Below, one piece after another: positions 14,788-37,474 of a stretch of DNA of 41,704 nucleotides (the first letter of the stretch is position 1; each line of letters opens with the position of its first letter). The stretch spans positions 222,602-264,305 of the forward strand of contig NZ_JABSNM010000005.1 of NCBI RefSeq assembly GCF_013294065.1, read 5' to 3'. Below the pieces are notes generated by a model. The model was not told the DNA's origin, searched no databases, and saw only the letters and a list, made by a program, of their open reading frames with translations. The stretch is from Sphaerotilus uruguayifluvii. GTDB lineage: Bacteria > Pseudomonadota > Gammaproteobacteria > Burkholderiales > Burkholderiaceae_C. The translations under genes and the position numbers were made by a program.

Positions 14788-17724
14788 ATGAATCATCTGT
14801 ATCTCGGGCTCGGGGGGGCCGGTGTCCGGGTATGGCAGGCCCTGGGCCGGCGGCTGGCATGCCGGCCGGACACGGCCGGCCGCAAGGCGGTGCTCGAGCC
14901 GCTGCTGATCGACACCGATGCGAGGGAACTGCGCGACGAGGCGCCCGGCTGGCGCCTGCTGGGAGGCACGCTGGCGCCGCCGCCCGCCCAGCGGCTGCTG
15001 CTCGACGCCGACGCGGAGGCGCTGCACACGCTGCTGCGCGCGCGCACCGACCTGCGCGACTGCATCGCCGCCGACGCGGCCGACTGGGAGGCAAGGCTGA
15101 CCGATCTGGGCGCCTTCGATGCGCCGCTGTCGCAGGTCGCGGCGCGGCTGCCCGGCTGGCCCTCCCGCCGCCTGGGCCGGCTGCTGCTGGCGCAGGGCCA
15201 GGGCCGGGTGCGCATCGCGCTCGACGCGGTGGCGCAGTCGCTGCAGGCGCGCCACGCCCATCCGTCGCTGACCATCCATCTGGTGGCGCAGCTCGGCGGC
15301 GCCACCGGCGCCGGCCTGCTGATGGACCTGCTGACGCTGCTGCGCCGCCATCCGCCGGCGCCGCGCTGCAGCGTGCACCTGCATGCGCTGCTGCCCGAGG
15401 CCGACACCGCCGGCGGCCGGCCCGCGCCGCTGGCCGAGGTGCAGGCCTACGCGGTGCTGCGCGAGCTGCAGGCGGCCGCGCGCGAGGGCCTGTTCGAGCT
15501 GTGCCTGCTGTCGGGCCAGACCGACGAGCGCGGCCTGCAGCCGCTCGACGCCGCCAGCCGCGAGCGCCAGCTGGCCGACTGGATCTTCCATCGCGTCAGC
15601 GGCGAGCCGGAATGGGTCGTGCCGCCGCGCGCCGGCGCCGGCGGGGTGCGTCCCGGCGAGTTCGTCGCCTTCGGCCTGGCCGAGCGCGGCGCCGACCGCG
15701 TCGAGCTGCGCACCCACCTGTGCCACGAGCTGATGCTGCGCCTGCTGGCGCAGCTGCGCTACAACCACTGGCGCCCGGGCCTGGGCTTCGTGACGCATCC
15801 GCGGCCGGTGCCTGCCGAGCCGATGGCCGAGCTGCTCGCCGCCTGGGGCCTGTCCGATGCGCATCTGCAGCTGGCCGCACCGCTGCCGGAGATCGACGGC
15901 GAGACCCCGCCGGGTGCGCCGATCGAGGCGGAGTGGCGTGCGCTCGAGCTGCACTACCGCGAGCTGATCGGGCTGGTCGCGCCGGCGCGGCGCGCCCCCG
16001 AGCTGCGCCGCCTGTTCGAGCAGGGCCTGGAGGAGCGCTTCCGCGGCCAGGGCGTCGAGGCGGCCTTCGACCTGCCCGACCATGCGCTGCGGCGCCGTGC
16101 GGTGGTCGTGCGCCAGCGCGTCGAATCGGCGCTGTGGGACGACTGGCGCGACGGCCGGCGCTCGCTGCACGAGTGCGGCCAGCTGCTCGCCGCGGTGCTG
16201 GCCGACCTGTCCGACCGCATCGAGCCGCTGCGCCAGGAGCAGCATGTGCTCGAGACGCAGGCCGCGCTGCTGTGGCAGCAGATCGAGAGCGCCGAGCAGG
16301 CCGCCGCGGTGCGTCCGGGCATGCTCGCGCGGCTGCGCGGCCAGGCCGCGCCGGTCGACCTCGAGGCGCTGATCGAGCCGCTGCGCGAGTACGTGCTGGC
16401 GCGCACCCGCTCGGCTGCCGTCACGCTGACGCTGCGCCTGATCGCCGAGATCGAGGCTCAGCTGACGACGCTGCAGGGCATGGTCGACGGCGGCGAGATG
16501 GCGCTGGCCGCGCTGGTCGAGGAGACCGATGCCGCCGCCGCGGCCGCGCTGCCGCCGGTCCGCCACGAGGCGGGCGCCTCGCGGCTCGAGACGCGCGAGC
16601 AGCTCGCGCACTGGCGCAACCAGCTCATCACCCGCGAGACGATGCAGCGCGAGCACCTGCGGGTGCTGCGCGCCGGCCTGTTCGGGCGGCTGGGCGAGCA
16701 GGCCAGCTTCCGCATCTTCGCGCAGCGCCTGGGCGAGGCGGCGACCTGCGACGCGCTGCTCGCCGCGTGCGCGCAGCGGCTGCAGCCCGCGTCGCTGCAG
16801 CCGGTGGTCTCGGCGGCCTGGGATGCGTGGATGATGGGCCTGCATGCCGAGCCCGAGCGGCTTGCGCGCGAGCAGGCCGCGCTGCGGGCGCAGGCCGCGG
16901 TCTCGATGGTCTGGTCGGCCGACGACCTGCCGCGGGTGCCTGTGCTGGAGTGCCTGCGCGTGCCGGCGGCGCCGTCGCCGGCCGAGTCCGCGCCGGTGGC
17001 CGGCGACGGCGCCGAGGCGGGCGAGGCGGACGAGGGCGAAGTGCTCACCCGGGCCGCGCCGTCGCTGCGCATGCCCGACCTGGCTCAGCTGCTGCGCCGC
17101 CCCGACGGCGGCACGCTGGTGCTGCAGCACCGCGCCGAGGGCGAGGGCGCGATGGTGCTGCTGCGCCTGGTGCGCGGCCTGCCGCTGCAGGCGCTGCGAC
17201 CGGTGCAGGCGCTGCACCGCCTGCACGAGGCGCACCGGCTGCAGGCCGGGCGCGCGGCGCTGTGGCTGCAGCTCGACGCGACGGCCGATCTGCCCGAGCT
17301 GCTGGCGGTCGACGTGCAGGCGCAGCAGGCGCGGGCGCGCACCGTGGTGCTGCTGGCCGAGGCGCTGGGCCTGCTGCGCCACGAGCCCGAGCCGCTGACC
17401 GGCACGCCGGTGCTGGTGCATGTGCGCCTCGACGAGGACGGCTTCGAGCTGGACCGCGTCCGCCTGGGCCGCGATCCGCTCGAGGCGGTCGACCAGGCCC
17501 GCGAGCGGGTGCTGCACGACCTGTTCGACGAGGTCTGCGCCGCGCTGCAGTCCGGCCATCACGCCGATGCCGGTGCGCTCGCGCGGCTGCGCGACACGAT
17601 GCGCGAGCGCATCGAGACGCTGCGCCGGCAGTCGCCGCCGGCGCAGTGGGACACCATCAGCCGGCAATGGAACGAGGCCGCCCGAGAGGCCATGAAGCTG
17701 ATCCGTCAGGAGGGGACCCGATGA
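14788..17724 (+). CDS. Tubulin/FtsZ-like GTPase-family protein (Tubulin_2 type)
   Basis: Large protein of 978 residues whose first ~260 residues follow the FtsZ/tubulin nucleotide-binding order. They show MNHLYLGLGGAG (T1-like, residues 7-12), LLIDTD (T2-like, 39-44), LVAQLGGATGAGLLMDLL (T4 signature, GGATGAG at 170-176 versus GGGTGSG in FtsZ), and HLHALLP followed by EVQAYAVLREL (T5 region). The remaining ~700 residues are helical, Ala/Arg/Glu-rich, with probable coiled coil around 480-560; I recognise no domain there. I could not locate a T7-type NxDxxD synergy loop, so GTP hydrolysis is uncertain. ATG 14788 puts the glycine-rich strand at the extreme N-terminus, as in the family; the upstream in-frame ATG at 14644 would add unrelated sequence. 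It overlaps the next gene by 4 bp. A cytoskeletal or membrane-remodelling role is inferred. Confidence 0.8.
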   Translation: MNHLYLGLGGAGVRVWQALGRRLACRPDTAGRKAVLEPLLIDTDARELRDEAPGWRLLGGTLAPPPAQRLLLDADAEALHTLLRARTDLRDCIAADAADWEARLTDLGAFDAPLSQVAARLPGWPSRRLGRLLLAQGQGRVRIALDAVAQSLQARHAHPSLTIHLVAQLGGATGAGLLMDLLTLLRRHPPAPRCSVHLHALLPEADTAGGRPAPLAEVQAYAVLRELQAAAREGLFELCLLSGQTDERGLQPLDAASRERQLADWIFHRVSGEPEWVVPPRAGAGGVRPGEFVAFGLAERGADRVELRTHLCHELMLRLLAQLRYNHWRPGLGFVTHPRPVPAEPMAELLAAWGLSDAHLQLAAPLPEIDGETPPGAPIEAEWRALELHYRELIGLVAPARRAPELRRLFEQGLEERFRGQGVEAAFDLPDHALRRRAVVVRQRVESALWDDWRDGRRSLHECGQLLAAVLADLSDRIEPLRQEQHVLETQAALLWQQIESAEQAAAVRPGMLARLRGQAAPVDLEALIEPLREYVLARTRSAAVTLTLRLIAEIEAQLTTLQGMVDGGEMALAALVEETDAAAAAALPPVRHEAGASRLETREQLAHWRNQLITRETMQREHLRVLRAGLFGRLGEQASFRIFAQRLGEAATCDALLAACAQRLQPASLQPVVSAAWDAWMMGLHAEPERLAREQAALRAQAAVSMVWSADDLPRVPVLECLRVPAAPSPAESAPVAGDGAEAGEADEGEVLTRAAPSLRMPDLAQLLRRPDGGTLVLQHRAEGEGAMVLLRLVRGLPLQALRPVQALHRLHEAHRLQAGRAALWLQLDATADLPELLAVDVQAQQARARTVVLLAEALGLLRHEPEPLTGTPVLVHVRLDEDGFELDRVRLGRDPLEAVDQARERVLHDLFDEVCAALQSGHHADAGALARLRDTMRERIETLRRQSPPAQWDTISRQWNEAAREAMKLIRQEGTR

Positions 17725-19379
17725 GCCGGGCTGTCTGCACCAATCTTCCCGCGGCCTGCAGCAAGGCGGCCGCGCGCACGCCGCTGCCGATGTCCGGGCC
17801 TGAGGACCGCTGCCCGGAATGCGGCGCCGCGCTGCTGCCGATCGATGCGGCCGTCAGCGCCTCGCCGGCCGGGGCTGCGCGCTGGATCGTGCCGGCGAGC
17901 GGAGTCGCGCTTGCCGCGCTGGCCGGGCTGCTGATGTGGCGCGGCCACGAGAGCCGGACGGTGCCGCCGGCGCCCGGCCCCGGCGCGGTCACCGCCGAGG
18001 CCGTCGTGCCCGCGGCCCCGGCACCGGTCACGCCGGCCGTGACTCAGGCCGCCGCCACGCTCGAGTCCCATCCGCCGGGCGCCGGCCAGCCGGCGGTGCT
18101 GACGCTGTCCGGCGCCGGCCTGATCGGCCTGCCGCAGGCGGCCGCGCTGGTCGAGGGCTTCGTGAAGGCCGAGGGCCTGGGCGAGGTGCTGCGTCCTTCC
18201 GCCGAGGCCTCGGGCGCTGGCGCGGGCCCCTTGCTCGTGCGCCAGCCTTCCGGTGCGCGGCTGGAGCTGCGTCTCGCGGCGGCCGAGGCCGGCCCCGAGG
18301 CCGCCGGCCTGCGCCGCGTCTCGCTGCTGGGCGGCGATGTCGCGACCGGCGATGTCACGCTCGGCCTGGACGCGCTGGCCGTGGTGGTGCATCCGGAGAG
18401 CCCGCTGCAGTCGATCACGCTGGCGCAGCTGCGCCAGCGGCTGGGCGGTCGCAAGGGGCGCGGGCCCGAATCGATGCACCTGCCGGCCGAGGCCTCGCTG
18501 CAGGCTCTGGTCGCGCGCCAGCTGCTCGACGGCGCGGCGCTGCCTGAAGGGGTGGCACGCCACGCCGATGCGGCGGCCCTGGTCGCCGCGGTGCTGGCCG
18601 ATCCGGCCGCGATCGGGCTGGTGCCGCTGTCCGCGGTCGGCTCCGCGCGGGTGCTGGCGGTGGCGGATGCCACCGGGTCGACCTGGCTGCCGACGCCGGA
18701 GACGCTGGCGGCCGAGCGTTATCCGCTGACCCATCGCCTGGTCATTCGCCTGCCCGAGGGTGCCGACAGCCGGCTGCAGCGTCTGGCGCAGTACCTGGCG
18801 GGGCCGACGGCGCAGTCGCGCCTGGCCGCGCAGGTGCGTGTGCCGGCGGCGCCGCTGCTGGTGGAGTCCGAGCGCATCGAGCCGGTCGAGATCGGCGCTG
18901 CGGTGAAGATGCCGCGCGACTACGCCGCGCTGACCCGGCCGGCTCGTCTGCTGACCGGTCGCATCGACTTCGGATCTGGCGAGGATGCGCTGGACGAGGC
19001 GGCACGCGCCGAGGTCGCGCGGCTCGGCCGGGCCCTGTCGGGCGGACAGGTGCCTCCGGGCGGCTCGGTCATCGTCGTCGCGCTGGCCAACGATCCGGGC
19101 AGCTTCTGCGCCAACCGCGCGCTGTCGGAGCGCCGGGCGACGCAGGTCGCGCAGGTGCTGCGCGACGCCGGCGTGCCGGTGGCGGTCGTGCGTGGCGTCG
19201 GGCGCCTCGCGGCGGCCGGGGCTGCCGCCAGTCCGGCCGCGTCGCTGGAGCGCCGCGCCGAGATCTGGGTCAGCGACACGCCGGTGCGGCAGCCCGCGCC
19301 TTTCCGCTGCGTCTCCGGTACCGGGGCCTCGGGCCCCGAGTCGGCGCCTGTGGCGCCCGCCGCAGCCTCCGGGGCGTGA
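17721..19379 (+). CDS. Zinc-ribbon / transmembrane / PstS-like / OmpA-like fusion protein
   Basis: Inner-membrane protein of 552 residues. Cysteines 6, 13, 31 and 34 (ending CPECG) form a cytosolic zinc-ribbon-like head. One membrane helix follows (about 55-73, WIVPASGVALAALAGLLMW), then a Pro/Ala linker, then a periplasmic domain (about 125-400) resembling phosphate-binding-protein/PstS folds (LTLSGAGLIGLPQAAALVEG, LDALAVVVHPESPLQSIT). The C-terminal OmpA-like peptidoglycan-associating domain spans about 412-520 (RIDFGSGEDALDE, NRALSERRATQVAQVL, LERRAEIWV). The start ATG overlaps the tubulin-like gene's stop (ATGA) and follows a strong AGGAGGGG site, so the pair is coupled. The architecture would link the cytosolic partner to the cell wall; that is inference. 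The ending is Pro/Ala-rich. Confidence 0.85.
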   Translation: MSRAVCTNLPAACSKAAARTPLPMSGPEDRCPECGAALLPIDAAVSASPAGAARWIVPASGVALAALAGLLMWRGHESRTVPPAPGPGAVTAEAVVPAAPAPVTPAVTQAAATLESHPPGAGQPAVLTLSGAGLIGLPQAAALVEGFVKAEGLGEVLRPSAEASGAGAGPLLVRQPSGARLELRLAAAEAGPEAAGLRRVSLLGGDVATGDVTLGLDALAVVVHPESPLQSITLAQLRQRLGGRKGRGPESMHLPAEASLQALVARQLLDGAALPEGVARHADAAALVAAVLADPAAIGLVPLSAVGSARVLAVADATGSTWLPTPETLAAERYPLTHRLVIRLPEGADSRLQRLAQYLAGPTAQSRLAAQVRVPAAPLLVESERIEPVEIGAAVKMPRDYAALTRPARLLTGRIDFGSGEDALDEAARAEVARLGRALSGGQVPPGGSVIVVALANDPGSFCANRALSERRATQVAQVLRDAGVPVAVVRGVGRLAAAGAAASPAASLERRAEIWVSDTPVRQPAPFRCVSGTGASGPESAPVAPAAASGA

Positions 19380-19589: not shown

Positions 19590-21035
19590 ATGCTCTTCAA
19601 CTCGGCAGAGTTCATCCTGCTGTTCCTGCCGCTGGTGCTCGTGGTCTACCACGCGCTGCCGCACCGCGGACAGAATGTCTTCCTCGTCATCGCCAGCTGC
19701 GTGTTCTACGCGAGCTGGGACTGGCGCTTCCTGCTGCCGCTGCTGTTCACCACCGGGGTCGACTACCAGATCTCGCTGAAGCTGGCCGAGTCGGTGCGCC
19801 GCGGCGAGCCCCAGGCGGTGCGCAGGCGCTGGATGCAGCTGAGCATCGCGCTGAACCTGGGTCTGCTGGCCTTCTTCAAGTACGCCAACTTCTTCGCCCA
19901 GTCGGCGGTCGACGCCGGCCGGCTGCTCGGGCTGGACTGGTCGCTGCCGGTGATGGAGATCGTGCTGCCGGTGGCGATCTCGTTCTACACCTTCCAGGCG
20001 ATGTCCTACACCATCGACGTCTACCGCGGCGAGCTGCATCCCTGCGACTCGTTCTGGGACTTCTTCCTGGCGGTGCTGTATTTCCCGCATCTGGTGGCCG
20101 GTCCGATCCAGCGCGCCTCGACGCTGCTGCCGCAGGTGATCCGCCCGCGCACGATGCAGCGCGACGTGGTGATCGAGGGCCTGCACCTGATGCTGTGGGG
20201 CTACTTCAAGAAGGTCTACATCGCCGACAACCTGACGCCCTGGGTCGACGCGGCCTTCCGCACCGGCGTCACGCCCGACACCGCGACGGTGGCGACCGGC
20301 GTGCTGGCCTTCACCTTCCAGATCTACTGCGACTTCTCGGGCTACACCGACATCGCGCGCGGCGTGGCGCGGCTGATGGGCTTCGAGTTCGCGCTGAACT
20401 TCCGCCTGCCGTACTTCGCGACCAACCCGTCGGACTTCTGGCGGCGCTGGCACATCAGCCTGTCGAGCTGGCTGGCCGACTACCTGTACAAGCCGCTGGG
20501 CGGCAACCGCGGCTCGCGCTGGATGACCTGCCGCAACCTGATGATCACGATGCTGCTGGGCGGCCTGTGGCACGGCGCGGCGTGGAACTTCGTGCTCTGG
20601 GGCTTCTACCACGGCCTGATCCTGGTGCTGCACCGCCTGGCGCAGCCGGCGCTCGAGCGCATCGGCCGCCGCTTCGAGGCGCTGCCGGGCGTGTGGCTGA
20701 CGATCCGCATCGCGGCGATGTTCCTGATGACCTGCTACGGCTGGCTGCTGTTCCGCGCCACCTCGCTGGAGCAGATCGGCGCGATGACGCATCTGCTGCT
20801 GGTGCCGCAGGGCGGCTTCGACTGGGCGCCGCTGGGCGAGGTGATGAAGCTGGTCGCGCCGCTGCTGCTGGTGCAGTGGGTGCAGTGGCGCACCGGCGAC
20901 CTGTACTTCACCCGCCAGCTCTGGAGCGGCCGCGGCGCGGGCGCGCCGCTGCGGGTGGCCGGCTACGCGGTCATGGCCTACCTGTGCCTGTTCCTGGGCG
21001 GCCAGCCGCAGTCCTTCGCCTACTTCCAGTTCTGA
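19590..21035 (+). CDS. MBOAT-family O-acyltransferase (AlgI/DltB-like)
   Basis: Inner-membrane acyltransferase of 481 residues that should move an acyl (probably acetyl) group across the membrane for transfer onto an extracytoplasmic glycan. It begins MLFNSAEFILLFLP, the usual AlgI-type N-terminus, with an AGGGGGG ribosome-binding site. Many hydrophobic helices are visible. Signature stretches are LPVAISFYTFQAMSYTID, YFPHLVAGPIQRAS, RLPYFATNPSDFWRRWHISL and GGLWHGAAWNFVLWGFYHG, the last carrying the invariant catalytic-site His. The SGNH-type gene 18 bp downstream is the expected partner, as with AlgI/AlgJ-AlgX pairs. No polysaccharide synthesis cluster is adjacent, so the acceptor is unknown. 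Confidence 0.94.
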   Translation: MLFNSAEFILLFLPLVLVVYHALPHRGQNVFLVIASCVFYASWDWRFLLPLLFTTGVDYQISLKLAESVRRGEPQAVRRRWMQLSIALNLGLLAFFKYANFFAQSAVDAGRLLGLDWSLPVMEIVLPVAISFYTFQAMSYTIDVYRGELHPCDSFWDFFLAVLYFPHLVAGPIQRASTLLPQVIRPRTMQRDVVIEGLHLMLWGYFKKVYIADNLTPWVDAAFRTGVTPDTATVATGVLAFTFQIYCDFSGYTDIARGVARLMGFEFALNFRLPYFATNPSDFWRRWHISLSSWLADYLYKPLGGNRGSRWMTCRNLMITMLLGGLWHGAAWNFVLWGFYHGLILVLHRLAQPALERIGRRFEALPGVWLTIRIAAMFLMTCYGWLLFRATSLEQIGAMTHLLLVPQGGFDWAPLGEVMKLVAPLLLVQWVQWRTGDLYFTRQLWSGRGAGAPLRVAGYAVMAYLCLFLGGQPQSFAYFQF

Positions 21036-21053
21036 TCCGTCCCGGAGCCCGCC

Positions 21054-22220
21054 ATGATGAAGACCCTGTTCCGTCGCCGGCCGGTCCGCTGGGCCGCCTA
21101 CACGCTGCTGGCGCTGCTGACGCTCGAATGCTGCTCGCGCCTGGAGGACCGCATTCGGCAGCAGGCGCCGCTGGACCGGCCGCACACCATCGATTCCGTC
21201 TTCCATGACGGGCCGGACGGCCGCCACGGCCGGCCGGGCGCGCACTTCGCCAAGTGGTCGATGAACTCGCTGGGCTACCGCAGCCCCGAGCCGCGGCCCG
21301 ACAGCAGCGTGCGCGTGCTGACCTTCGGCGCGTCGGAGACCTTCGGCCTGTACGAGAGCGCCGGGCAGGAGTACCCGCGCCAGCTCGAGCGCGAGCTGCA
21401 GCGCCGCGGCCTCGAGCGCGCCGAGGTGATCAACGTCGCGCTGCCGGGCATGCGCATCGGCCACGCCGACTACCTGCGCGAGGCGATCGCGCGGCTGCGG
21501 CCGCAGTGGGTGCTGCTCTACCCGTCGCCGGCGAACTACATCGGCGCCGAGGCCCCGCTGTGCCACGAGGGCGCCATCGCGCGGCCGGTGCGCATGACGC
21601 CGCCGCCGGAGCAGTTCGAGCCGCCGCCGCCGCGCGCGCACCTGCGCCTGGCCGGCAAGGTCGAGCAGGTCGTCAAGCCGCTGCTGCCGCTGAGGATGAC
21701 GGTGGCGATGAAGCGCCTGTCGATCCGCCGTGCCGAGGCCGGCGGCGAGGTCATGGACCGTCTGCCCGAGCCGATGATGGGCCATTTCCTGGCCGACCTG
21801 TCCTGCACCGCGCGGGTGGTCGAGTCGATGGGCGCGCGGCCGCTGCTGGTGACGCACGCGACCGTCTTCGGCCCCGGCTTCGAGCGCGGCGACGGGCTGA
21901 TGCTGACGAACTGGCGCTCCTTCTATCCGGAGCTGCGCGAGGACGGCTTCCTCGACATGGAGCGCCGTGCCGCCGAGGGCGTGCGGGCGCTGGCGCGCAC
22001 GCGCCAGCTGCCGCTGGCCGATGCCTCGGCGCAGCTGCCCGGCGGGACGGAGAACTTCGCCGACTTCGTGCACTTCACCGACGCCGGTGCGGCGCAGATG
22101 GCCCGGCTGGTGGCCGACACGCTGCTGCAGGCCGGCGGCCCGCAGGCGACGCGGCCGCAGCTGACCGCGGCGGTCGGGCCGCTGCCCGGCCTGCCCGATC
22201 CGCTCACACGGGTTCGTTGA
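21054..22220 (+). CDS. SGNH/GDSL hydrolase-like protein, MBOAT partner
   Basis: Protein of 388 residues with an N-terminal membrane anchor or uncleaved signal (about 12-27, WAAYTLLALLTLECC). The rest should be periplasmic. SGNH block residues are visible: Ser94 in TFGASETFG, the Gly block in VINVALPGM, Asn in YPSPANYIG, and Asp337/His340 in ENFADFVHFTD, so the catalytic set looks complete. Together with the upstream MBOAT gene this suggests O-acetylation of an exported glycan, with this protein as acetyl carrier/transferase or esterase; which one cannot be told from sequence. Two tandem ATGs lie at the start. Its 3' end overlaps the convergent DUF599 gene by 17 bp. Confidence 0.88.
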   Translation: MMKTLFRRRPVRWAAYTLLALLTLECCSRLEDRIRQQAPLDRPHTIDSVFHDGPDGRHGRPGAHFAKWSMNSLGYRSPEPRPDSSVRVLTFGASETFGLYESAGQEYPRQLERELQRRGLERAEVINVALPGMRIGHADYLREAIARLRPQWVLLYPSPANYIGAEAPLCHEGAIARPVRMTPPPEQFEPPPPRAHLRLAGKVEQVVKPLLPLRMTVAMKRLSIRRAEAGGEVMDRLPEPMMGHFLADLSCTARVVESMGARPLLVTHATVFGPGFERGDGLMLTNWRSFYPELREDGFLDMERRAAEGVRALARTRQLPLADASAQLPGGTENFADFVHFTDAGAAQMARLVADTLLQAGGPQATRPQLTAAVGPLPGLPDPLTRVR

Positions 22221-28000: not shown

Positions 28001-31000
28001 TCAGGCGCCCCCGCGCCACGCGCCGGCCCCGTCTCGGCTGGCCCGGCCCAGCACGGCCAGCGTCTCCAGGATCTGCGGCAGGCGCTTCTTCCAGGGGCCG
28101 CGGCCGGTGAAGCGTGCGGCCAGCGCGTCGAGGTCGAGCGGCTGGGCGCTGGTGGCCAGGGTGTCGGCGACCGCGCGCATCTGCTCGGGCAGGTCGGCCG
28201 GCCAGGGCTGGCGGGTGGCCGGGGCGGCGGTGGCGGTGGCGGTGGCGGTGGCCGCGGGGGCGCTGTCCTCGTCGGTGTCGGGGGCTGCGGCGTCGGCAGG
28301 AGTTGCGGCGCTGCCGCCGACCAGCTCGATGTCGGCCTGGGTCGCGGGGGTGGCCGGGGCGGCGTGGCGCCGGGCCGGATCCTGGAACTCGGGGCGCAGC
28401 CAGCGGATGGTGCCGCGGGCTTCCTCGGCGGCGCGGCGGGTGTTGAGATCGACCAGGCGCTCCAGCAGCCGCTCGGTCCAGGCCTGTCGCGCCTCGTCGT
28501 CCGACCAGGGCACGGGGCCGAGGTCCTGCCAGCCGTAGGCCTCCAGCACGGCGGCGTCGAGGTCGTCGTGCAGGGTGCGCAGCACGCCGACCAGCGCCTG
28601 TTCGTGCAGCGCCTTGTCCTTGGCGTTCAGCGGCTCCTCGCGGCGCAGCTTGTCCAGCACGTTGTACATGCCGGTGAGCGTCACGGACTCGTGGGCGGCC
28701 TGGCGGGCCTTGCGGTGCGCGTCGATCTGCTCGGCCAGCGTGCGGATGCGCTCGGCCACCGGGGCAGTCAGGCCGGTGTCGTCGGCGGGGAAAGGGAACG
28801 TCTCGAAGCAGCGCGTCTTGTTGTAGCGCGGGTCGTTGCCTACGCCGAGACGCCCGCCAGCCGCCAGTGCCCAGTCGACATGTGTCTGACTGGACAGTAT
28901 TCCGAGGTTGAGTGCGTCCGCCGTGCTGAAAGTGACCAGCGTGCTGTCTGGTGCGATGGTTTGGGGGATGAAGGCGAATGCCCGATGTTTTGCTGTTTCG
29001 ACGGTGGCGATATAGCGCGGCAGACCTTGGACGGCCTGTCTGAACTGCTGCCGAGGGTGTCCGATGACCCACCACAGCTTCTGGAAAGTGGCATTCCGGT
29101 TCTGATCGCGCTCGGGCTTTGCCCGCGTCAGCAGGTGCTGATAAGCGGCAGGAAAACGCGCCCGAACCTCGTCCGACTCAAGTCCGAAGAAGTCGATGAC
29201 CCACACGCCACGCGGCCGCGAAGTGAAGTCGCGTCCGTTCAGATACGGCCGGATGTGTTTGTCCAACCCGCTGACCGATCCCAGTCCCAGCCCGCGGGCC
29301 GTGGTCTCGTCGATCTGGAAGGCTGCGCCGATGGTCTTCATGCCGACCGAGCACAGGTCGAGGTTGGCACGCAGCGGTCGCGCGCCCGCGACATCGGCGC
29401 CGACGCGCAGATCCGCCCCGATCCGGCCGGCGCGCTCGCTCAGCCGCTCGACCAGATCCTCGCCGTCGCCGGTCTCGTCACGTTCGGCCAGCACCTCGCG
29501 CAGCATGCCGGGGCGGTCGCTCCGTTCGGCCACGGTCATGGCGATGCGCACGGCCGCGCCGTCGCCGCTGTCCACCCATGGATGATCGGGAATCGCCATG
29601 ACCAGGGACAGCGCATTCTCGCCGCTCAGGTGCGGCTCGACGGCGCGGCGGACATACGCCTGCCGCAGGCTGTTCGAGGTGATCAGGCCGAAACGCTGCA
29701 CCTCTCCCGCACGGGTCAGCAGGGCGGCCTTGTGCCACCAGCGCACGACGAAATCGGTGGACTCGGGAATGTCCGGCCAGACCGACTGCAGCGCGTCGAC
29801 ATAACCGTCACCCAGCGCGTGACGCATCCGCTTCGAGCCGATGAACGGCGGATTGCCCACGATGAAATCCGCCTGCGGCCACTGCGCCTGACGCGGATTC
29901 AGGTAGCGCCATTCCGGGACACGCGCGGTGTCGTCGGGCACCTTTTCTCCCGTCACCGGATGCACCTTGGTCGTCTTGCCATCCCAGCGCGTGATCGGCC
30001 TCCCATCCGCATCCGTCGCCAGCTCCTGCCGGTCATAGGCCAGCACCGCATCCCGGCACGCGATGTTGCCGTAGTCATGCACCACCGGCTCGGCGACGCT
30101 CTTCTCGCCGCCGGTGCGGATCTGCCACTGCAGCCAGCCGATCCACAGCACCAGCTCGGCCAGCGCCGCCGCGCGCGGGTTCAGCTCGATGCCGAGCATC
30201 TGGCGCAGCGTCACCGTGCCGCCCTCCATCCCGAGCTGCCCCTGTGTCGACTCGCCCAGCGCCTCCAGCCGGTCGAGCACCTCGCCCTCCAGCCGCTTCA
30301 GGTGCTCCAGCGTCACGTACAGGAAATTGCCGCTGCCGCAGGCCGGATCGAGCACCCGCACATGGCACAGCCGGTGATGGAAGCGCCGCAGCTCGGCGCG
30401 CGCCTCGGCCAGCTTGTCCTCGCGCTTCCTGCCGTCGAGCGCGTCGGCCTCGCCCGCCAGCACCAGCGCCGCGCCCAGCGCGTGCTGCCACTCGGCGCGC
30501 AGCGGCTCGATCACCGTCGGCATCACCAGCCGCTCCACATACGCCCGCGGCGTGTAGTGCGCCCCCAGCGCGTGGCGCTCGCCCGGATCGAGCGCGCGCT
30601 CCAGCAGCGTGCCGAAGATCGCCGGCTCCACCTCGCGCCAGTTCGCCTGTGCCGCGCGCAGCAGGCCGTCGATCTGCGCGGTCGTCAGCGGCAGCACATA
30701 GCCCGGCTGCCCGGCGCCCTTGAACAGCTTGCCGTTGAAGCGCATCAGGTCCTGCGCCAGCACCGGGCTGAAGCCGCCACTGTCCATCGTCGCCCACAGC
30801 GCCTGCAGCATCTTGCCCAGCCGCGGCGGCTCGTCACGCCAGCGCGTCAGCAGCCCGACGAAGGCGCCCCGCCCGTCGTCGTCGCGCGGCAGCAGCCCGA
30901 CATCCTCCGCGAACATCGAGAACAGGCAGCGCGTCAGGAAGGCGGCGACCTGCTCGGCCGGATGCCCGGCCTGCTCCAGGCTGCGCGCCAGCTCCGCCAG

Positions 31001-31618
31001 CTCGGCCGACACCGCCCGCGTCACCCGCGCGCTGACGCGCGACGGGTCGAGCGACATCGGATCGAGCCACAGCGCGCGCAGCCGCTCGCGGATCTCCGGG
31101 CGGTGCAGGTCGTCGAGCCGGATGCGGTGCGTGCGCACGTCGGGGTAGGGCGTGTAGGCACCGCCCGAGCGGCTGAACTCGGCGTACAGCTCGATGACAT
31201 GGCCGACATCGACCACCGCGATGAAGGGCGGGCGCCCCTCGGCGGCGGGCAGCGCACGCACATAGCCCTCGGCCTGCGACAGCGCCTGCAGCAGCGCGTT
31301 GTCGAAGCTCTTGCGCGTGCGCCCGGTCGTGGCCGCCTGCGCGCCCGGATCGAGCTTCTTCGACTCCAGCACGAAGCAGCCGCGGCGATAGCAGTCGATG
31401 CGCCGCGCACTGCTCGTGCCGTCGCCATGCATCAGCGTCAGCGGGCGCTCGAACATGTAGTCCTGCTCGGCGGTCGCGTGCGGGCGCGGCACGCCGAGCA
31501 GCTCGCACAGCTCGATGGTGAAGCTCTGTGCCGTCGACAGCTCCGAGGCGGTCGAGCCGCGCCAGCGGGTGACGAAGGCCTCGATGTCGGTCGCGGGCAG
31601 AGCGGTGCTGCTGTTCAT
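28001..31618 (-). CDS. MmeI-like (type IIL/IIG) fused restriction endonuclease-methyltransferase
   Basis: Single polypeptide of 1205 residues combining domains in the MmeI order. The N-terminal nuclease candidate has D75 (RRIDCYRRG) and E85-x-K87 (FVLESKK), a PD-(D/E)xK arrangement. A helical spacer carries FLTRCLFSMFAEDVGLLP. The N6-adenine methyltransferase has DPACGSGNFLY (about 424) and NPPF (about 588). A target-recognition region includes KHIRPYLNGRDF. After about residue 1070, a Pro/Ala/Thr linker leads to a small helical, winged-helix-like end (LPEQMRAVADTLATSAQPLD). It should methylate and cut at one specific site without partner subunits. ATG 31618 has AGGGAGA upstream. No BREX or DISARM partners are adjacent, which argues against PglX or DrmMI. 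Confidence 0.82.
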   Translation of the reverse strand: MNSSTALPATDIEAFVTRWRGSTASELSTAQSFTIELCELLGVPRPHATAEQDYMFERPLTLMHGDGTSSARRIDCYRRGCFVLESKKLDPGAQAATTGRTRKSFDNALLQALSQAEGYVRALPAAEGRPPFIAVVDVGHVIELYAEFSRSGGAYTPYPDVRTHRIRLDDLHRPEIRERLRALWLDPMSLDPSRVSARVTRAVSAELAELARSLEQAGHPAEQVAAFLTRCLFSMFAEDVGLLPRDDDGRGAFVGLLTRWRDEPPRLGKMLQALWATMDSGGFSPVLAQDLMRFNGKLFKGAGQPGYVLPLTTAQIDGLLRAAQANWREVEPAIFGTLLERALDPGERHALGAHYTPRAYVERLVMPTVIEPLRAEWQHALGAALVLAGEADALDGRKREDKLAEARAELRRFHHRLCHVRVLDPACGSGNFLYVTLEHLKRLEGEVLDRLEALGESTQGQLGMEGGTVTLRQMLGIELNPRAAALAELVLWIGWLQWQIRTGGEKSVAEPVVHDYGNIACRDAVLAYDRQELATDADGRPITRWDGKTTKVHPVTGEKVPDDTARVPEWRYLNPRQAQWPQADFIVGNPPFIGSKRMRHALGDGYVDALQSVWPDIPESTDFVVRWWHKAALLTRAGEVQRFGLITSNSLRQAYVRRAVEPHLSGENALSLVMAIPDHPWVDSGDGAAVRIAMTVAERSDRPGMLREVLAERDETGDGEDLVERLSERAGRIGADLRVGADVAGARPLRANLDLCSVGMKTIGAAFQIDETTARGLGLGSVSGLDKHIRPYLNGRDFTSRPRGVWVIDFFGLESDEVRARFPAAYQHLLTRAKPERDQNRNATFQKLWWVIGHPRQQFRQAVQGLPRYIATVETAKHRAFAFIPQTIAPDSTLVTFSTADALNLGILSSQTHVDWALAAGGRLGVGNDPRYNKTRCFETFPFPADDTGLTAPVAERIRTLAEQIDAHRKARQAAHESVTLTGMYNVLDKLRREEPLNAKDKALHEQALVGVLRTLHDDLDAAVLEAYGWQDLGPVPWSDDEARQAWTERLLERLVDLNTRRAAEEARGTIRWLRPEFQDPARRHAAPATPATQADIELVGGSAATPADAAAPDTDEDSAPAATATATATAAPATRQPWPADLPEQMRAVADTLATSAQPLDLDALAARFTGRGPWKKRLPQILETLAVLGRASRDGAGAWRGGA
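28226..28252 (-). repeat. GGCGGT hexanucleotide tandem repeat inside the RM gene
   Basis: Four exact GGCGGT units (28226-28249) plus a partial one encode alternating Thr-Ala in the interdomain linker of the fused enzyme. Units are multiples of three, so copy-number slippage would lengthen or shorten the linker without shifting frame. Confidence 0.7.
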
Positions 31619-34247: not shown

Positions 34248-34817
34248 TCAGCGCCCGGCCGCTGGCGCGAACCAGTGGATCTGCAGGCACTCGCGCAGCC
34301 GCAGCCGCGCGCGGTGCAGCAGCACGAACAGATGGGTCGCGCTGACGCCGGTTTCCTTGCAGATCTCCTCGGTGTCGAGCTCCAGCCACTCGCGCATCAT
34401 GAAGATGCGGCCCTGCTGGCCGGGCAGGCGCTCGATGCAGGCGTCGAGCACCGCCAGGAACTGGCGTTGCTGCAGCGCCGGCCCGGGCTGGCCCCAGTCT
34501 GCGGGCATCTCTCGCCAGTGGCCGTCCGGGCGGAAGAGCAGCTCGTCGAGATCCTGCGACTCGTCCGCCGCGTCGTGTGCCGGCAGGGCGAACTCGCGGC
34601 GATGGCGGCGGATCTGGTCGATGACCTTGTGCTTGAGGATGCCCACCAGCCAGGTCTTGAGCTGCGATCCGCCCCTGAAGGCCTGCGGCCGCTCCAGCGC
34701 CGCCAGCACCGTCTCGGACACAGCATCCTCCGCCCAGGCGTCCTGGCGCAGCTGGTGACGGGCATAGCGCAGCAGCTCGGGGCGCAGGGCCTGGACCTGG
34801 GTGGCGAAGTCGCTCAT
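34248..34817 (-). CDS. ECF RNA polymerase sigma factor
   Basis: Sigma-70 family ECF factor of 189 residues with the two usual regions. Sigma-2 covers about residues 10-78 (ELLRYARHQLRQDAWAEDAV, FRGGSQLKTWLVGILKHKVI). Sigma-4 covers about residues 125-180 (VLDACIERLPGQQGRIFMMR, LDTEEICKETGVSATHLFV). The linker with ADESQDLDELLFRPDGHW is typical of the group that pairs with small ZAS anti-sigma factors. ATG 34817 is chosen over an upstream open frame to 35027 that overlaps bufA. It is divergent from the buf operon across about 100 bp; that operon is the obvious target. Confidence 0.93.
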   Translation of the reverse strand: MSDFATQVQALRPELLRYARHQLRQDAWAEDAVSETVLAALERPQAFRGGSQLKTWLVGILKHKVIDQIRRHRREFALPAHDAADESQDLDELLFRPDGHWREMPADWGQPGPALQQRQFLAVLDACIERLPGQQGRIFMMREWLELDTEEICKETGVSATHLFVLLHRARLRLRECLQIHWFAPAAGR

Positions 34818-34848
34818 CGAAGGGGCGCCGAAAAAAAGATGCGCGCAG

Positions 34849-34875
34849 TGTAAGGACCGTCGGGCCTGACGCGAC
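34849..34875 (+). promoter_or_regulatory. Candidate ECF-sigma promoter of the buf operon
   Basis: TGTAAGG (34849-34855) and CGAC (34872-34875) are separated by 16 bp, the spacing typical of ECF promoters, and point toward bufA about 45 bp downstream. The element lies in the divergent region shared with the ECF sigma gene. The -35 choice is by eye and has not been compared with other promoters. A strong AAGGAG site follows at about 34910 for bufA. Confidence 0.4.
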
Positions 34876-34920
34876 AGAGCAGGGTCGATCTCGACATTCC
34901 ACCCTTCCAAGGAGTCCTTC

Positions 34921-35202
34921 ATGAGCATCACCACCCGCCTGATCCTGTCGTCCGCCCTGGCCTCCGTGATGGCCGCCGGCCTGGTCGCACCCGCCGCGGC
35001 GCAGTCCAAGGAAAAGTGCTTCGGCATTGCCCAGGCCGGTCAGAACGACTGCGCCAATCTCTCCGGCACCCATTCCTGCGCCGGGCAGAGCAAGGTCGAC
35101 AACGGGGCCGACGAATGGAAGTATGTCGCCAAGGGTACCTGCAAGGACCTCAAGGGCATGACCGCCGACGAGGCTCGGGCCGCGATGGCGATGAAGAAGT
35201 AA
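34921..35202 (+). CDS. bufA1: BufA1-type bufferin precursor (DUF2282)
   Basis: Exported precursor of 93 residues. The signal peptide (residues 1-27, cleavage near AAA|QSK) is followed by a 65-residue mature part with four cysteines at 33, 44, 53 and 74, in the family contexts [26 protein letters not shown] and KGTCKDL. In this family the cysteines are oxidatively modified by the MNIO enzyme BufB, giving a copper-binding (metallophore) peptide that buffers periplasmic copper. The gene has an excellent AAGGAG ribosome-binding site, and the biosynthetic genes bufB, bufC and a DoxX gene follow in an operon. The modification of this particular peptide is inferred. Confidence 0.93.
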
Positions 35203-35227
35203 GTCGTCCCGCGCTGCCTGCTGCACC

Positions 35228-36142
35228 ATGCGACCGCCTGCCTTCGCCCCTGCGCTTGTCCCGGCTGCCGGCATCGGCCTGCGTGCCCCGCATCTTGCCG
35301 AGGTGCGTGCGCGTCAGCCTGAGCTCGGCTTTCTCGAAGTCCACAGCGAGAATTTCTTCGCCGAGGGTGGCGCGGCGCGTGCCGCGCTGCTGGGCCTGCG
35401 CGCCGAGCATGCGATCAGCCTGCACGGCGTCGGGCTGTCGCTGGGCAGCGCCACCGGGCTGGACACCGAGCATCTGGAGTGCCTGGCCGCGCTGGTGGCG
35501 GCGGTCGAGCCGGTGCGGGTGTCGGACCACGCCAGCTTCGCCCGGGTCGATCCGGGGTGTGGCCGGCCGGTCTGGCATGGCGCGGACCTGCTGCCGGTGG
35601 CCTTCACGCCGGGATCGCTGGCGGTGATGGTCGCCAATGTGCAGCGGGTGCAGGAGCGGCTCGGCCGGCGGCTGCTGGTCGAGAACCTGAGCGCCAGTCT
35701 GGCCTGGGCCGACGACACGATGGCCGAGGCCGACTTTCTTGCGGAACTCGCGCGGCGCAGTGGCTGCGGCCTGCTGCTCGATGTCAACAATCTGGTGGTC
35801 AACGCGCTGAACGCGCAGCCGGCGGGCACGCCGGCTGCAGCGGCCGATGCCGAGGCCGGCCGGCGTGCCTGCGCCTGGATCGACCGCCTGGCCGCCGCCG
35901 CCCCGGCCGGTGCAGTCGGCGAGATCCACCTGGCCGGCTACACGGTGGCCGGCGACGGCCTGGTCGTCGACGATCACGGCAGCCGCGTGCATGCGCCGGT
36001 CTGGCCGGTCTATCGCCATGCGGTCCGGCGCTTCGGTGCGGTGCCGACGCTGATCGAATGGGACACCGATCTGCCTGCGCTCGATGTGCTGCTCGACGAG
36101 GCGGCGTGTGCGCAGGCCGCGATGAGCGAGGTGCTGGCATGA
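35228..36142 (+). CDS. bufB: MNIO-family bufferin-modifying enzyme BufB (DUF692)
   Basis: Cytoplasmic non-heme multinuclear-iron oxidative enzyme of 304 residues, a TIM-barrel-type DUF692 protein. Conserved iron-ligand regions are visible in order: [65 protein letters not shown] and [11 protein letters not shown]. It should oxidise cysteines of BufA1 to a heterocyclic product in the presence of the partner BufC. It starts 25 bp after bufA and overlaps the start of bufC by 4 bp (ATGA). Confidence 0.94.
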
Positions 36143-37014
36143 ACCGGCTGGCCGACGACGAGGCGATCCGCCACGAGCAGCTGCGTCAGCAGCTGCTGAT
36201 GGACGCACTGCGCCGGCGTGATGGGCAAGGCGTGGCCGGCTGGCTGCGGCCGCTGGCGCGCGCGAGCGTCGCACGCGGGCTGGTCGCCTATGCCGCCAAT
36301 GCGGACGAGCATGCCGCGCGGGCACTGGCGGCTCGCTATCCGACGGTGCAGGCGCTGCTCGGTGCCGACACCTTCGCGCAGGTCGCGGCGCGCCACTGGC
36401 GCGAGGCACCGCCGTCCTGCGCCGATCTGGCGTGCTGGGGCGAGCGGCTGCCGGCGGCGCTGGCCGATGACGAGCGGCTGGCCGATCTGCCGTATCTGGC
36501 CGAGGTCGCCCGGCTGGATGACGCGGTGGCGCAGGCCGCGGCGGCGGCCGACGCCGACGTGCCCCGGCCCGATACGCTGCTGCGTCTGGCCGACACCGAC
36601 GCGCAGCAGCTGGTGCTGCGTGCCGCACCTGGGCTGGCGCTGCTGGAGGGGGGGCATCCTGCCGGCTCGATCTGGCGTGCGCACCATGAGCCGGCGGAGC
36701 GCGACCGGACCGAGGCCTTTGCCGAGGCCCGCGCGGCGCTGGCCGAAGGCCGTGGCGAGACGGTGGTCGTCTGGCGCCAGGGCTGGGCGGTGCGGGTGGC
36801 GGGCGCGATGCCGGAGGTGGCCTGTTTCATCCGGCGGGCGCTGCTCGAGGCCCGGCCGCTGGCCGAGGCGCTGGAAGGCGCCGGCGAGACCTTCGACTTC
36901 GTCGCCTGGCTGGCGCCGGCAGTGAGGGATGGCCTGGTGCTGCGGCTCGACGCGTGCCGTGGCGGATCTGCCGAACTTTCGAACCGATGGAGTGATCGAG
37001 ATGATCCGACCTGA
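36139..37014 (+). CDS. bufC: Bufferin partner protein BufC (DUF2063 N-terminal)
   Basis: Protein of 291 residues, the RiPP-recognition-type partner that presents the precursor to BufB (HvfC/BufC family, DUF2063-type N-terminus). The N-terminal region (about 10-110) is helical ([56 protein letters not shown]) and the C-terminal part (from about 145) is mixed. It has no signal peptide. It is translationally coupled to bufB (4-bp overlap) and overlaps the DoxX gene by 14 bp. The C-terminus, ending RWSDRDDPT, is somewhat longer than the last recognisable helix. Confidence 0.88.
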
Positions 37015-37474
37015 TGCCTTGTTGCCCGCGCCGCTGCGGCGCGCCCATGCGGCCTTCGTCAGGCTGGCCGAGGCGCTTCAGCCGCTGGCGCAGCTTGCTG
37101 CGCGGCTGTTCGTCGCGCAGGCGTTCTTTCTGGCCGGCCTGACCAAGCTGCGCGACTGGGAGACGACACTGCTGCTGTTCACCGAGGAATACCGGGTGCC
37201 GCTGCTCTCGCCCTCGGTCGCTGCGGTGCTGGGCACGACCGGCGAGGTGCTGCTGCCGGGGCTGCTGGTGCTTGGGCTGGGCGGTCGGGTGGCGGCGCTG
37301 GGGCTGTCGGTGGTGAATGTCGTGGCGGTGCTGAGCGTGCCGGAGATGCCCGAGCCGGCCTTCATGCTGCATGTGTTCTGGGGCAGCCTGCTGGCCGGGC
37401 TGGTGCTGTGGGGGCCGGGGCGCTGGTCGGCGGACGCCAGGCTGGCCTGCGCCCGCTCTCGGGGCCGAGGGTGA
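37001..37474 (+). CDS. DoxX-family membrane protein
   Basis: Inner-membrane protein of 157 residues with about four hydrophobic segments (LAARLFVAQAFFLAGLTKLR, AAVLGTTGEVLLPGLLVLGL, VAALGLSVVNVVAVLSV, HVFWGSLLAGLVLWGP), matching DoxX. DoxX proteins are the usual last gene of bufferin operons, where they have been called bufD; their biochemical role there is unclear. ATG 37001 has GGAGTGATCGAG directly upstream and overlaps bufC by 14 bp. The start 72 nt earlier lacks a site and is rejected. Confidence 0.88.
   Translation: MIRPDALLPAPLRRAHAAFVRLAEALQPLAQLAARLFVAQAFFLAGLTKLRDWETTLLLFTEEYRVPLLSPSVAAVLGTTGEVLLPGLLVLGLGGRVAALGLSVVNVVAVLSVPEMPEPAFMLHVFWGSLLAGLVLWGPGRWSADARLACARSRGRG

Follow-up and report, generated by a model that had tools for sequence, protein, structure and literature searches.

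The window analysed here, a stretch of 41,704 nucleotides (G000:C5:222602-264305, from a genome of 4.89 Mb), carries two overlapping genes, named T and O, which encode a tubulin-like protein of the FtsZl1 family and a protein in which a cysteine ribbon and one membrane span precede domains related to PstS and OmpA. This T-O pair has been duplicated in the genus of the window and the two copies have been eroded reciprocally: the window copy (type A) keeps the tubulin head, while the second copy (type B) keeps the motifs of the ligand sensor and of the wall-binding domain. Genomes and loci are cited by G and L numbers, and the features of the window copy are the following.

14788 to 17724, plus strand: gene T, FtsZl1/Tubulin_2 family, 978 amino acids (Pfam Tubulin_2; homology to the FtsZl1 of G564)
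14788 to 15657, plus strand: tubulin-like head of T, residues 1-290 (Tubulin_2 match; end set by us)
14806 to 14823, plus strand: T1-like loop GLGGAG, T residues 7-12 (sequence motif)
14908 to 14919, plus strand: IDTD, T residues 41-44 (sequence motif)
15295 to 15315, plus strand: T4-like signature loop GGATGAG, T residues 170-176 (sequence motif)
15658 to 17721, plus strand: helical tail of T (in 13 of 13 aligned copies; helices from a low-confidence model)
17721 to 17724, plus strand: ATGA stop/start overlap of T and O
17721 to 19379, plus strand: gene O, with ribbon, span, PstS-related and OmpA-related parts, 552 amino acids (Pfam, family profile)
17736 to 17822, plus strand: zinc-ribbon-like segment of O, Cys 6, 13, 31 and 34 (like segments occur in other adaptors)
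17883 to 17939, plus strand: putative single membrane span of O, residues 55-73 (hydropathy and alignment)
18087 to 18875, plus strand: PstS-related domain of O, ligand motifs lost in the window copy (family profile against PstS structures)
18933 to 19274, plus strand: OmpA-related domain of O (YfiB model, E-value = 3.9e-7)
19089 to 19091, plus strand: Asn457 of O, at the Asp position of the OmpA-type TDxxG (alignment to YfiB)

FtsZl1 proteins are widespread relatives of tubulin. The first-pass annotation of this DNA had placed T and O correctly in coordinates, strand and order, and its reading of T as tubulin/FtsZ-like was borne out by a Pfam Tubulin_2 match to residues 4-251 (E-value = 1.4e-13; 51.3 bits, where the cut-off is 27) and by the motifs GLGGAG, IDTD and GGATGAG, which follow one another in the order claimed. 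NCBIfam gave no match on window T or on three other FtsZl1 proteins, and the T profile matched none of the PDB sequences. Using the FtsZl1 of G564 as query, residues 1-221 matched the head of window T (E-value = 7.8e-13) and residues 308-999 its tail (E-value = 2.0e-32). Four FtsZl1 heads from outside the genus (L051, L095, L091 and L090) share 35 invariant columns and window T has 24 of them, among them the T1-loop glycines, D42, R131, T173-G174, D180, P203 and E226; the same count is 24 in G155, 23 in L045, 23 in L013 and 19 in L048. The position preceding the Thr of the T4 loop is Ala in window T versus Gly in the four outside heads. Structure prediction started from alignments of two sequences for T and three for O, and long helices in the C-terminal part of T appear in a low-confidence model (mean predicted local distance difference test score, pLDDT, 38.4). 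Foldseek searches with that model returned tubulin-superfamily proteins or tubulin assemblies as six of the top seven matches (CetZ, sperm doublet, PhuZ, gamma-tubulin complex, TubZ and FtsZ), the fourth match being Get3, with a best E-value of 0.024 and nothing at 0.001. A tubulin fold for the head is thus backed by a firm Pfam match and mildly supported by Foldseek on a poor model.

Gene O overlaps the end of T by four bases (ATGA), and the coupling of the two genes stands as first described. Its zinc-ribbon-like N-terminus was also supported, as all four cysteines are invariant in 15 aligned O proteins, and the claim of one span agrees with the hydrophobic residues 55-73 (mean hydropathy 1.79), which align with the spans of other adaptors. 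The span call leans on that alignment as well as on hydropathy, because the PstS-related domain holds a stretch of slightly higher hydropathy (1.99). OmpA and PstS domains act in the periplasm, and therefore the ribbon of O would be cytosolic. The window O alone falls below the Pfam cut-offs for both periplasmic domains (OmpA, 26.2 bits against 27.2; PBP_like_2, 13.3 against 27), although their ancestry, as claimed earlier, is clear from the family profile, which matches PstS 4gd5 (E-value = 7.2e-27) and the OmpA-type YiaD 2k1s (E-value = 1.5e-17) in the PDB. The OmpA part of window O also matches YfiB structures (E-value = 1.6e-5); its N457 aligns opposite the Asp of YfiB TDNYG, while R472 of the OmpA peptide-binding site is retained. 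We take this Asp and Arg to belong to the peptide-binding site, and the PstS motifs GSNTVG, SGT, HGT(A/S)TAF and MASR to be ligand contacts. A working ligand sensor and wall anchor, the former given as a possibility in the first-pass annotation, are not supported for the window copy, in which the PstS ligand motifs are gone and Asn replaces the OmpA Asp. The broader picture, in which a ligand sensor links a cytosolic polymer to the wall, holds only by half for the window copy; the sensor and wall half resides in the second copy.

Judged by T, two metagenome assemblies of Sphaerotilus sp. are the nearest relatives with a name, and we call the genus Sphaerotilus-like by inference. T was detected in 11 of its 13 genomes and O in the same 11; G153 is without the pair. 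In total, 16 T-O pairs were found, seven of type A, five of type B and four in single-copy genomes. T lies directly upstream of O in all 16, and the four-base overlap is kept in 14 (the exceptions are L044 and L099), including all seven A pairs, where it reads ATGA. Recurrence in 11 of 13 congeneric genomes together with the overlap in 14 of 16 pairs places the T-O arrangement beyond chance. Adjacency of the homologues, proposed earlier as a check, holds in every genome of the genus with T and O and does not hold in the outside loci examined.

Beyond the genus T becomes scarce. The family-, order- and class-wide searches scored two to five candidates per genome, so that absences are non-exhaustive. 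Counting the own genome, Tubulin_2 occurs in seven of the 349 genomes searched in the order; T was found by sequence in five of 150 family genomes (two being of the genus) and by profile in six of 299 (three being of the genus), and O at an E-value of 1e-30 in four of 299 (again three of the genus). A weak T match was seen in G112 in the family sequence search. At 1e-10 the O profile finds some match in 267 of the 349 order genomes, and among the matches listed outside the genus these cover one domain, except in G337 (positions 5-540). At 1e-40 the profile has matches in the own genome and in six others among 274 of the class, and those in the six others begin at profile position 107 or later, beyond the ribbon. 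No T-like frame turned up in the nine O loci from outside the genus that were profiled, of which L112 and L113 are shorter than 4 kb, and the eight profiled T loci from outside the genus contained partial matches to O and no full O. Window T as query found nothing at 1e-5 in the plasmid and phage collections; the FtsZl1 of G564 matched one plasmid record, that of Paraburkholderia sp. PREW-6R.

The reciprocal erosion is evident in domain scores, in head length and in motifs. The T alignment holds 13 of the 16 proteins (missing are the A copy of G157, which is in two frames, the A copy of G159, split over contigs, and the B copy of G159, a contig-end fragment). The O alignment likewise holds 13 of 16 (the A copy of G160 is cut by a contig end; both copies of G159 are whole but were left out), and O motifs were counted in 15 proteins after adding the two of G159. 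Pfam was run on 11 of the 13 aligned T and 10 of the 13 aligned O, plus the O of G337. Tubulin_2 scores in type A are 51.3 bits in the window, 54.7 in L043, 51.3 in L045 and 40.4 in L013; in type B, L044 reaches 13.0 and L040 and L042 give no match; among single-copy T, L048 reaches 14.3 and L046, L047 and L049 give none. PBP_like_2 scores run the other way, with 13.3 (window), 14.2 (L043), 27.4 (L045) and 32.0 (L013) in type A, 107.6 (L044) and 104.7 (L040) in type B, and 94.1 (L048), 112.4 (L046), 107.9 (L047) and 98.2 (L049) in single-copy genomes. The T head, measured to window residue 290, spans 290-296 residues in type A, 230 in L044 and 163 in L040, L042 and L050, and no recognisable Tubulin_2 is left in the 163-residue heads of L040 and L042. 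All five A-type T, and L048 as well, have both the T1 and the T4 loop; the remaining seven of the 13 have lost T4, with T1 surviving in L044. Among the O motifs, GSNTVG and SGT are missing from all six A-type proteins and present in all nine others; HGT(A/S)TAF is exact in seven and MASR in eight of these nine, and neither occurs in any A-type protein. The OmpA Asp position is N or H in all six A-type proteins and D in all nine others. Every genome with a B copy also has an A copy (5/5). G152 (L048) has both loops and the sensor, with a head of 14.3 bits, and an intact ancestor is plausible.

Rates of nonsynonymous substitution (dN), identities and tree stems mirror these reciprocal losses. 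Between the own genome and G155, dN in copy A is 0.133 for the T head, 0.121 for the T tail, 0.314 for the periplasmic binding protein (PBP) part and 0.266 for OmpA, and in copy B it is 0.388 for what remains of the T head, 0.272 for the tail, 0.106 for PBP and 0.046 for OmpA; dnaE in the same comparison has 0.019. All ratios to synonymous change (dN/dS) are below 1, the maximum of 0.96 belonging to the B linker. Four genomes with both copies nearly whole were compared for identity, with values empty for the A-type O of G160: T identity is higher within A than within B in six of six genome pairs, PBP and OmpA identity is higher within B in all three comparable pairs of the six, and ribbon identity is alike within A and within B. 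Trees of 12 O and 13 T proteins of the genus, with two outside rows each, recover one A clade and one B clade, while the single-copy genomes group together in the T tree and fall at the unresolved base in the O tree. The stems of the two trees show opposite proportions, with 1.43 for A and 0.2 for B in O, and 0.34 for A and 0.65 followed by 1.26 for B in the T tail. As a separate observation, one metagenome T at L012:2739-5922, on the contig of L097, lies in two frames around a low-complexity repeat, which is either an assembly error or a real frameshift.

The origin of O is illuminated by FtsZl1 loci elsewhere. A ribbon-span gene stands next downstream on the same strand in four of 10 non-genus FtsZl1 loci (L051, L095, L125 and L133). 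In a search of 1373 open reading frames the O profile matched the adaptors of L125 (E-value = 7.2e-7), L051 (8.9e-6) and L095 (2.6e-5), cysteines included; L095 further contains another ribbon protein (2.2e-4) as well as an OmpA domain encoded by its own gene (1.2e-9). The protein at L133:10991-11788 (PREW-6R), with four cysteines and a span, lies about 40 bases behind its FtsZl1; it did not reach the O-profile limit of 0.01, and its assignment rests on the motif and on its similarity to the adaptor of L051 along the whole length (46% identity, E-value = 1.1e-61 in a set of eight proteins). In G564 (L125) the order is FtsZl1, ribbon-span protein and NMT1-like binding protein (4.4e-15), which is the order of T followed by the domains of O. 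Ribbon-less PstS-OmpA proteins without FtsZl1 occur in Pseudoalteromonas and at L126-L129, and G337 has a ribbon-PstS-OmpA protein without T, whose O was found at 1.9e-9 with a profile of the ribbon only. Since ribbon-span genes follow some FtsZl1 genes elsewhere and PstS-OmpA proteins stand without FtsZl1, O would most simply be explained as an FtsZl1 membrane adaptor that became fused to a PstS-OmpA protein. A further FtsZl1 frame of 1381 residues, at L134:7171-11313, is followed by an ATPase-like frame and is without a ribbon-span adaptor.

We consider it about an even call that T is an FtsZl1 protein seated on the O adaptor at the inner membrane, and that the duplicated pair has split the cytosolic and the periplasmic work. 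This explanation draws on the Tubulin_2 domain in T, the homology of the T tail to the FtsZl1 of G564, the adaptors downstream in four of 10 loci and the gene order in G564, and, for the split, on the mirrored domain scores, dN values, identities and tree stems. T would work at the inner face of the inner membrane, and O would be its membrane adaptor, in which a putatively cytosolic cysteine ribbon and a single span have been joined to a PstS-OmpA module in the periplasm. The conserved helical tail of T may dock on the ribbon of O, and the head may bind GTP and assemble in a GTP-dependent manner, its nucleotide state or assembly possibly being linked to what the periplasmic part binds, perhaps a phosphate-like ligand. 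The signal could have run in either direction, the periplasmic part once tuning the tubulin head or the head tuning the periplasmic part. After duplication, copy A would have become the cytosolic tubulin side and copy B the side of phosphate-like sensing and wall binding, and the two may cooperate.

Several observations weigh against this explanation. The head of window T keeps no more than 24 of the 35 columns invariant in the outside heads, and the putative T6 Asn, preceding a YAxLxEL-like stretch, is Gln219. The structure models are poor (mean pLDDT 38.4 for T and 42.2), and no claim was built on them. The adaptor is absent from six of the 10 non-genus FtsZl1 loci (L090-L094 and L134), the ribbon-only profile is not significant on the L095 ribbons (E-value = 0.58), and significant adaptor matches require ribbon, span and linker together, with composition bias amounting to at most 7 bits. 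In the metagenome assemblies G156 (83% complete) and G157 (94%), A is present with no B detected. G150, G151 and G154, each with a single copy, have lost T4 and retain the sensor, with no A found, so that the tubulin half is dispensable there and cooperation with a tubulin-bearing copy is unneeded. The erosions amount to few independent events on a small tree, and the sisterhood of A and B has support of 86/83 in the O tree while the branching is unresolved in the T tree.

A bolder form, in which A and B make up one mixed machine, A giving the nucleotide-binding tubulin and B the phosphate sensor and wall anchor, joined by tails and ribbon-spans, appears to us rather doubtful. If the mixed machine were true, duplication would have divided a tubulin-based signalling device into two complementary halves, one cytosolic and one periplasmic.

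Alternatively, the window copy may be a decaying duplicate in which T is functional, the periplasmic part of O is a relic and nothing envelope-spanning is left. This would fit the window O without ligand motifs and OmpA Asp, as well as the dN/dS of 0.69 for the A-type PBP between the own genome and G155. However, O is an open frame in the six A copies uncut by a contig end, its cysteines are invariant, ATGA is kept in 7/7 A pairs, and in the pairs with G058 the dN/dS of the A-type PBP amounts to 0.29 and 0.23, which leaves simple decay unlikely.

It is less probable still that the pair originated as a device for conflict or cell death and continues to act as one. Such a role is suggested by the neighbours of FtsZl1 elsewhere, namely a caspase-domain gene and a DUF4384 gene in L051, and CHAT, caspase-DUF4384 and DUF4384 genes in L095. 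Tubulins are reported among the components of GTPase-centred conflict systems in multicellular prokaryotes (PMC7159879). The L095 caspase is hit by PADLOC models (2.5e-24), and ZorB/MotB models match the OmpA part of B-copy O (best 7.1e-8), but PADLOC finds nothing on window T, B-copy T or window O. No effector gene was recognised beside the pair in the loci listed, where most neighbours are unprofiled, and the A pair adjoins dnaE in the six A loci with the upstream flank read. The combination of FtsZl1 with caspase/DUF4384 (L051, L095) and CHAT (L095) was not found described in the portions of the literature examined.

Least probable of all is that the pair shapes a sheathed filament, making the growth of the cell chain or sheath depend on the state of the wall and on phosphate. 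In favour, the searches made found the pair in no genus other than this one, which is close to the sheath-forming Sphaerotilus, and filaments of Leptothrix cholodnii are patchy under phosphorus limitation (PMC8264430). Against it, G153 of the same genus lacks the pair, and no gene links to sheath functions were seen.

Regarding the neighbourhood, the earlier remark that no vWA, kinase or phosphatase gene is adjacent agrees with what flanks the pair, dnaE and an MBOAT acyltransferase. The upstream neighbour, dnaE, is on the minus strand and was named from its sequence; dnaE also stands beside the A pairs of L043, L045, L096, L097 and L100, and in the single-copy L048 one gene lies between. Directly downstream on the same strand, an MBOAT O-acyltransferase and a weak GDSL-like gene occupy 19590-22220 of the window; such genes lie beside the A pair in G155 (L043) too, and not in G058 (L045) or G159 (L098). 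Copy B (L040, L042, L050 and L044) is near ackA/pta/fabI-like genes, named from sequence, from which no functional reading was taken. Elsewhere in the window, a MmeI-type restriction-modification protein of 1205 amino acids (28001-31618, minus strand) has N-terminal, helical, methyltransferase and target-recognition domains. Positions 34248-37474 hold a sigma factor (minus strand), DUF2282, a MbnB/TglH/ChrH-type enzyme (E-value = 1.3e-77) of ribosomally synthesised and post-translationally modified peptides (RiPPs), DUF2063 and DoxX. This resembles a RiPP operon of the bufferin type.

The FtsZl1 family itself is already known. The interest of the finding lies more in the paralogue and the adaptor than in the arrangement of the first-pass annotation, which had missed the duplication, the reciprocal erosion and the recurring downstream ribbon-span proteins. 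An adaptor for FtsZl1 can now be named and tested, because a like ribbon-span follows some other FtsZl1 genes, and the two copies offer ready-made separation-of-function alleles, a natural experiment on a tubulin family.

In comparison with known systems, the family was defined with OmpA, vWA, kinase and GTPase partners, and membrane remodelling was proposed for it, by Makarova and Koonin (2010, PMC2875224). A reviewer comment in the same source objects to FtsZl1-OmpA complexes on grounds of compartments and offers transport or signalling with PBP neighbours instead. A single O polypeptide predicted to span cytosol and periplasm would answer this objection. The earlier statement that tubulin-like proteins of this kind have no described function agrees with the literature searched, in which no experiment on FtsZl1 function was found, and no demonstration of nucleotide binding or filament formation was found in the portions of the literature examined. 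Titles and abstracts yielded no description of the pair, the adaptor or the reciprocal erosion, with most subscription journals and preprints outside the search. Like the FtsZl1 family, T has an N-terminal tubulin-like domain with T1 and T4 loops and a long C-terminal part, and as in some FtsZl1 operons an OmpA-type partner lies beside it. Unlike many FtsZl1 operons, in which vWA, kinase or GTPase genes are frequent but not universal, the unit comprises two genes with none of these beside T; its OmpA domain shares one chain with a putatively cytosolic ribbon and a span, and the head of its paralogue is worn away. O resembles the adaptors of L051, L095, L125 and L133 in having four cysteines and then one span, at the same place and on the same strand, whereas their periplasmic portions, instead of PstS-OmpA, consist of a repeat-like domain common to L051, L133 and L095, or are almost missing (L125). 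The PstS-type domain followed by an OmpA domain recalls the phosphate ABC transporter substrate-binding/OmpA protein of Pseudoalteromonas sp. THAF3; proteins of the THAF3 type differ from O in being without the four-cysteine ribbon and, in the loci examined, without an FtsZl1-like frame, while G337 differs from them in turn by having the ribbon, yet no FtsZl1.

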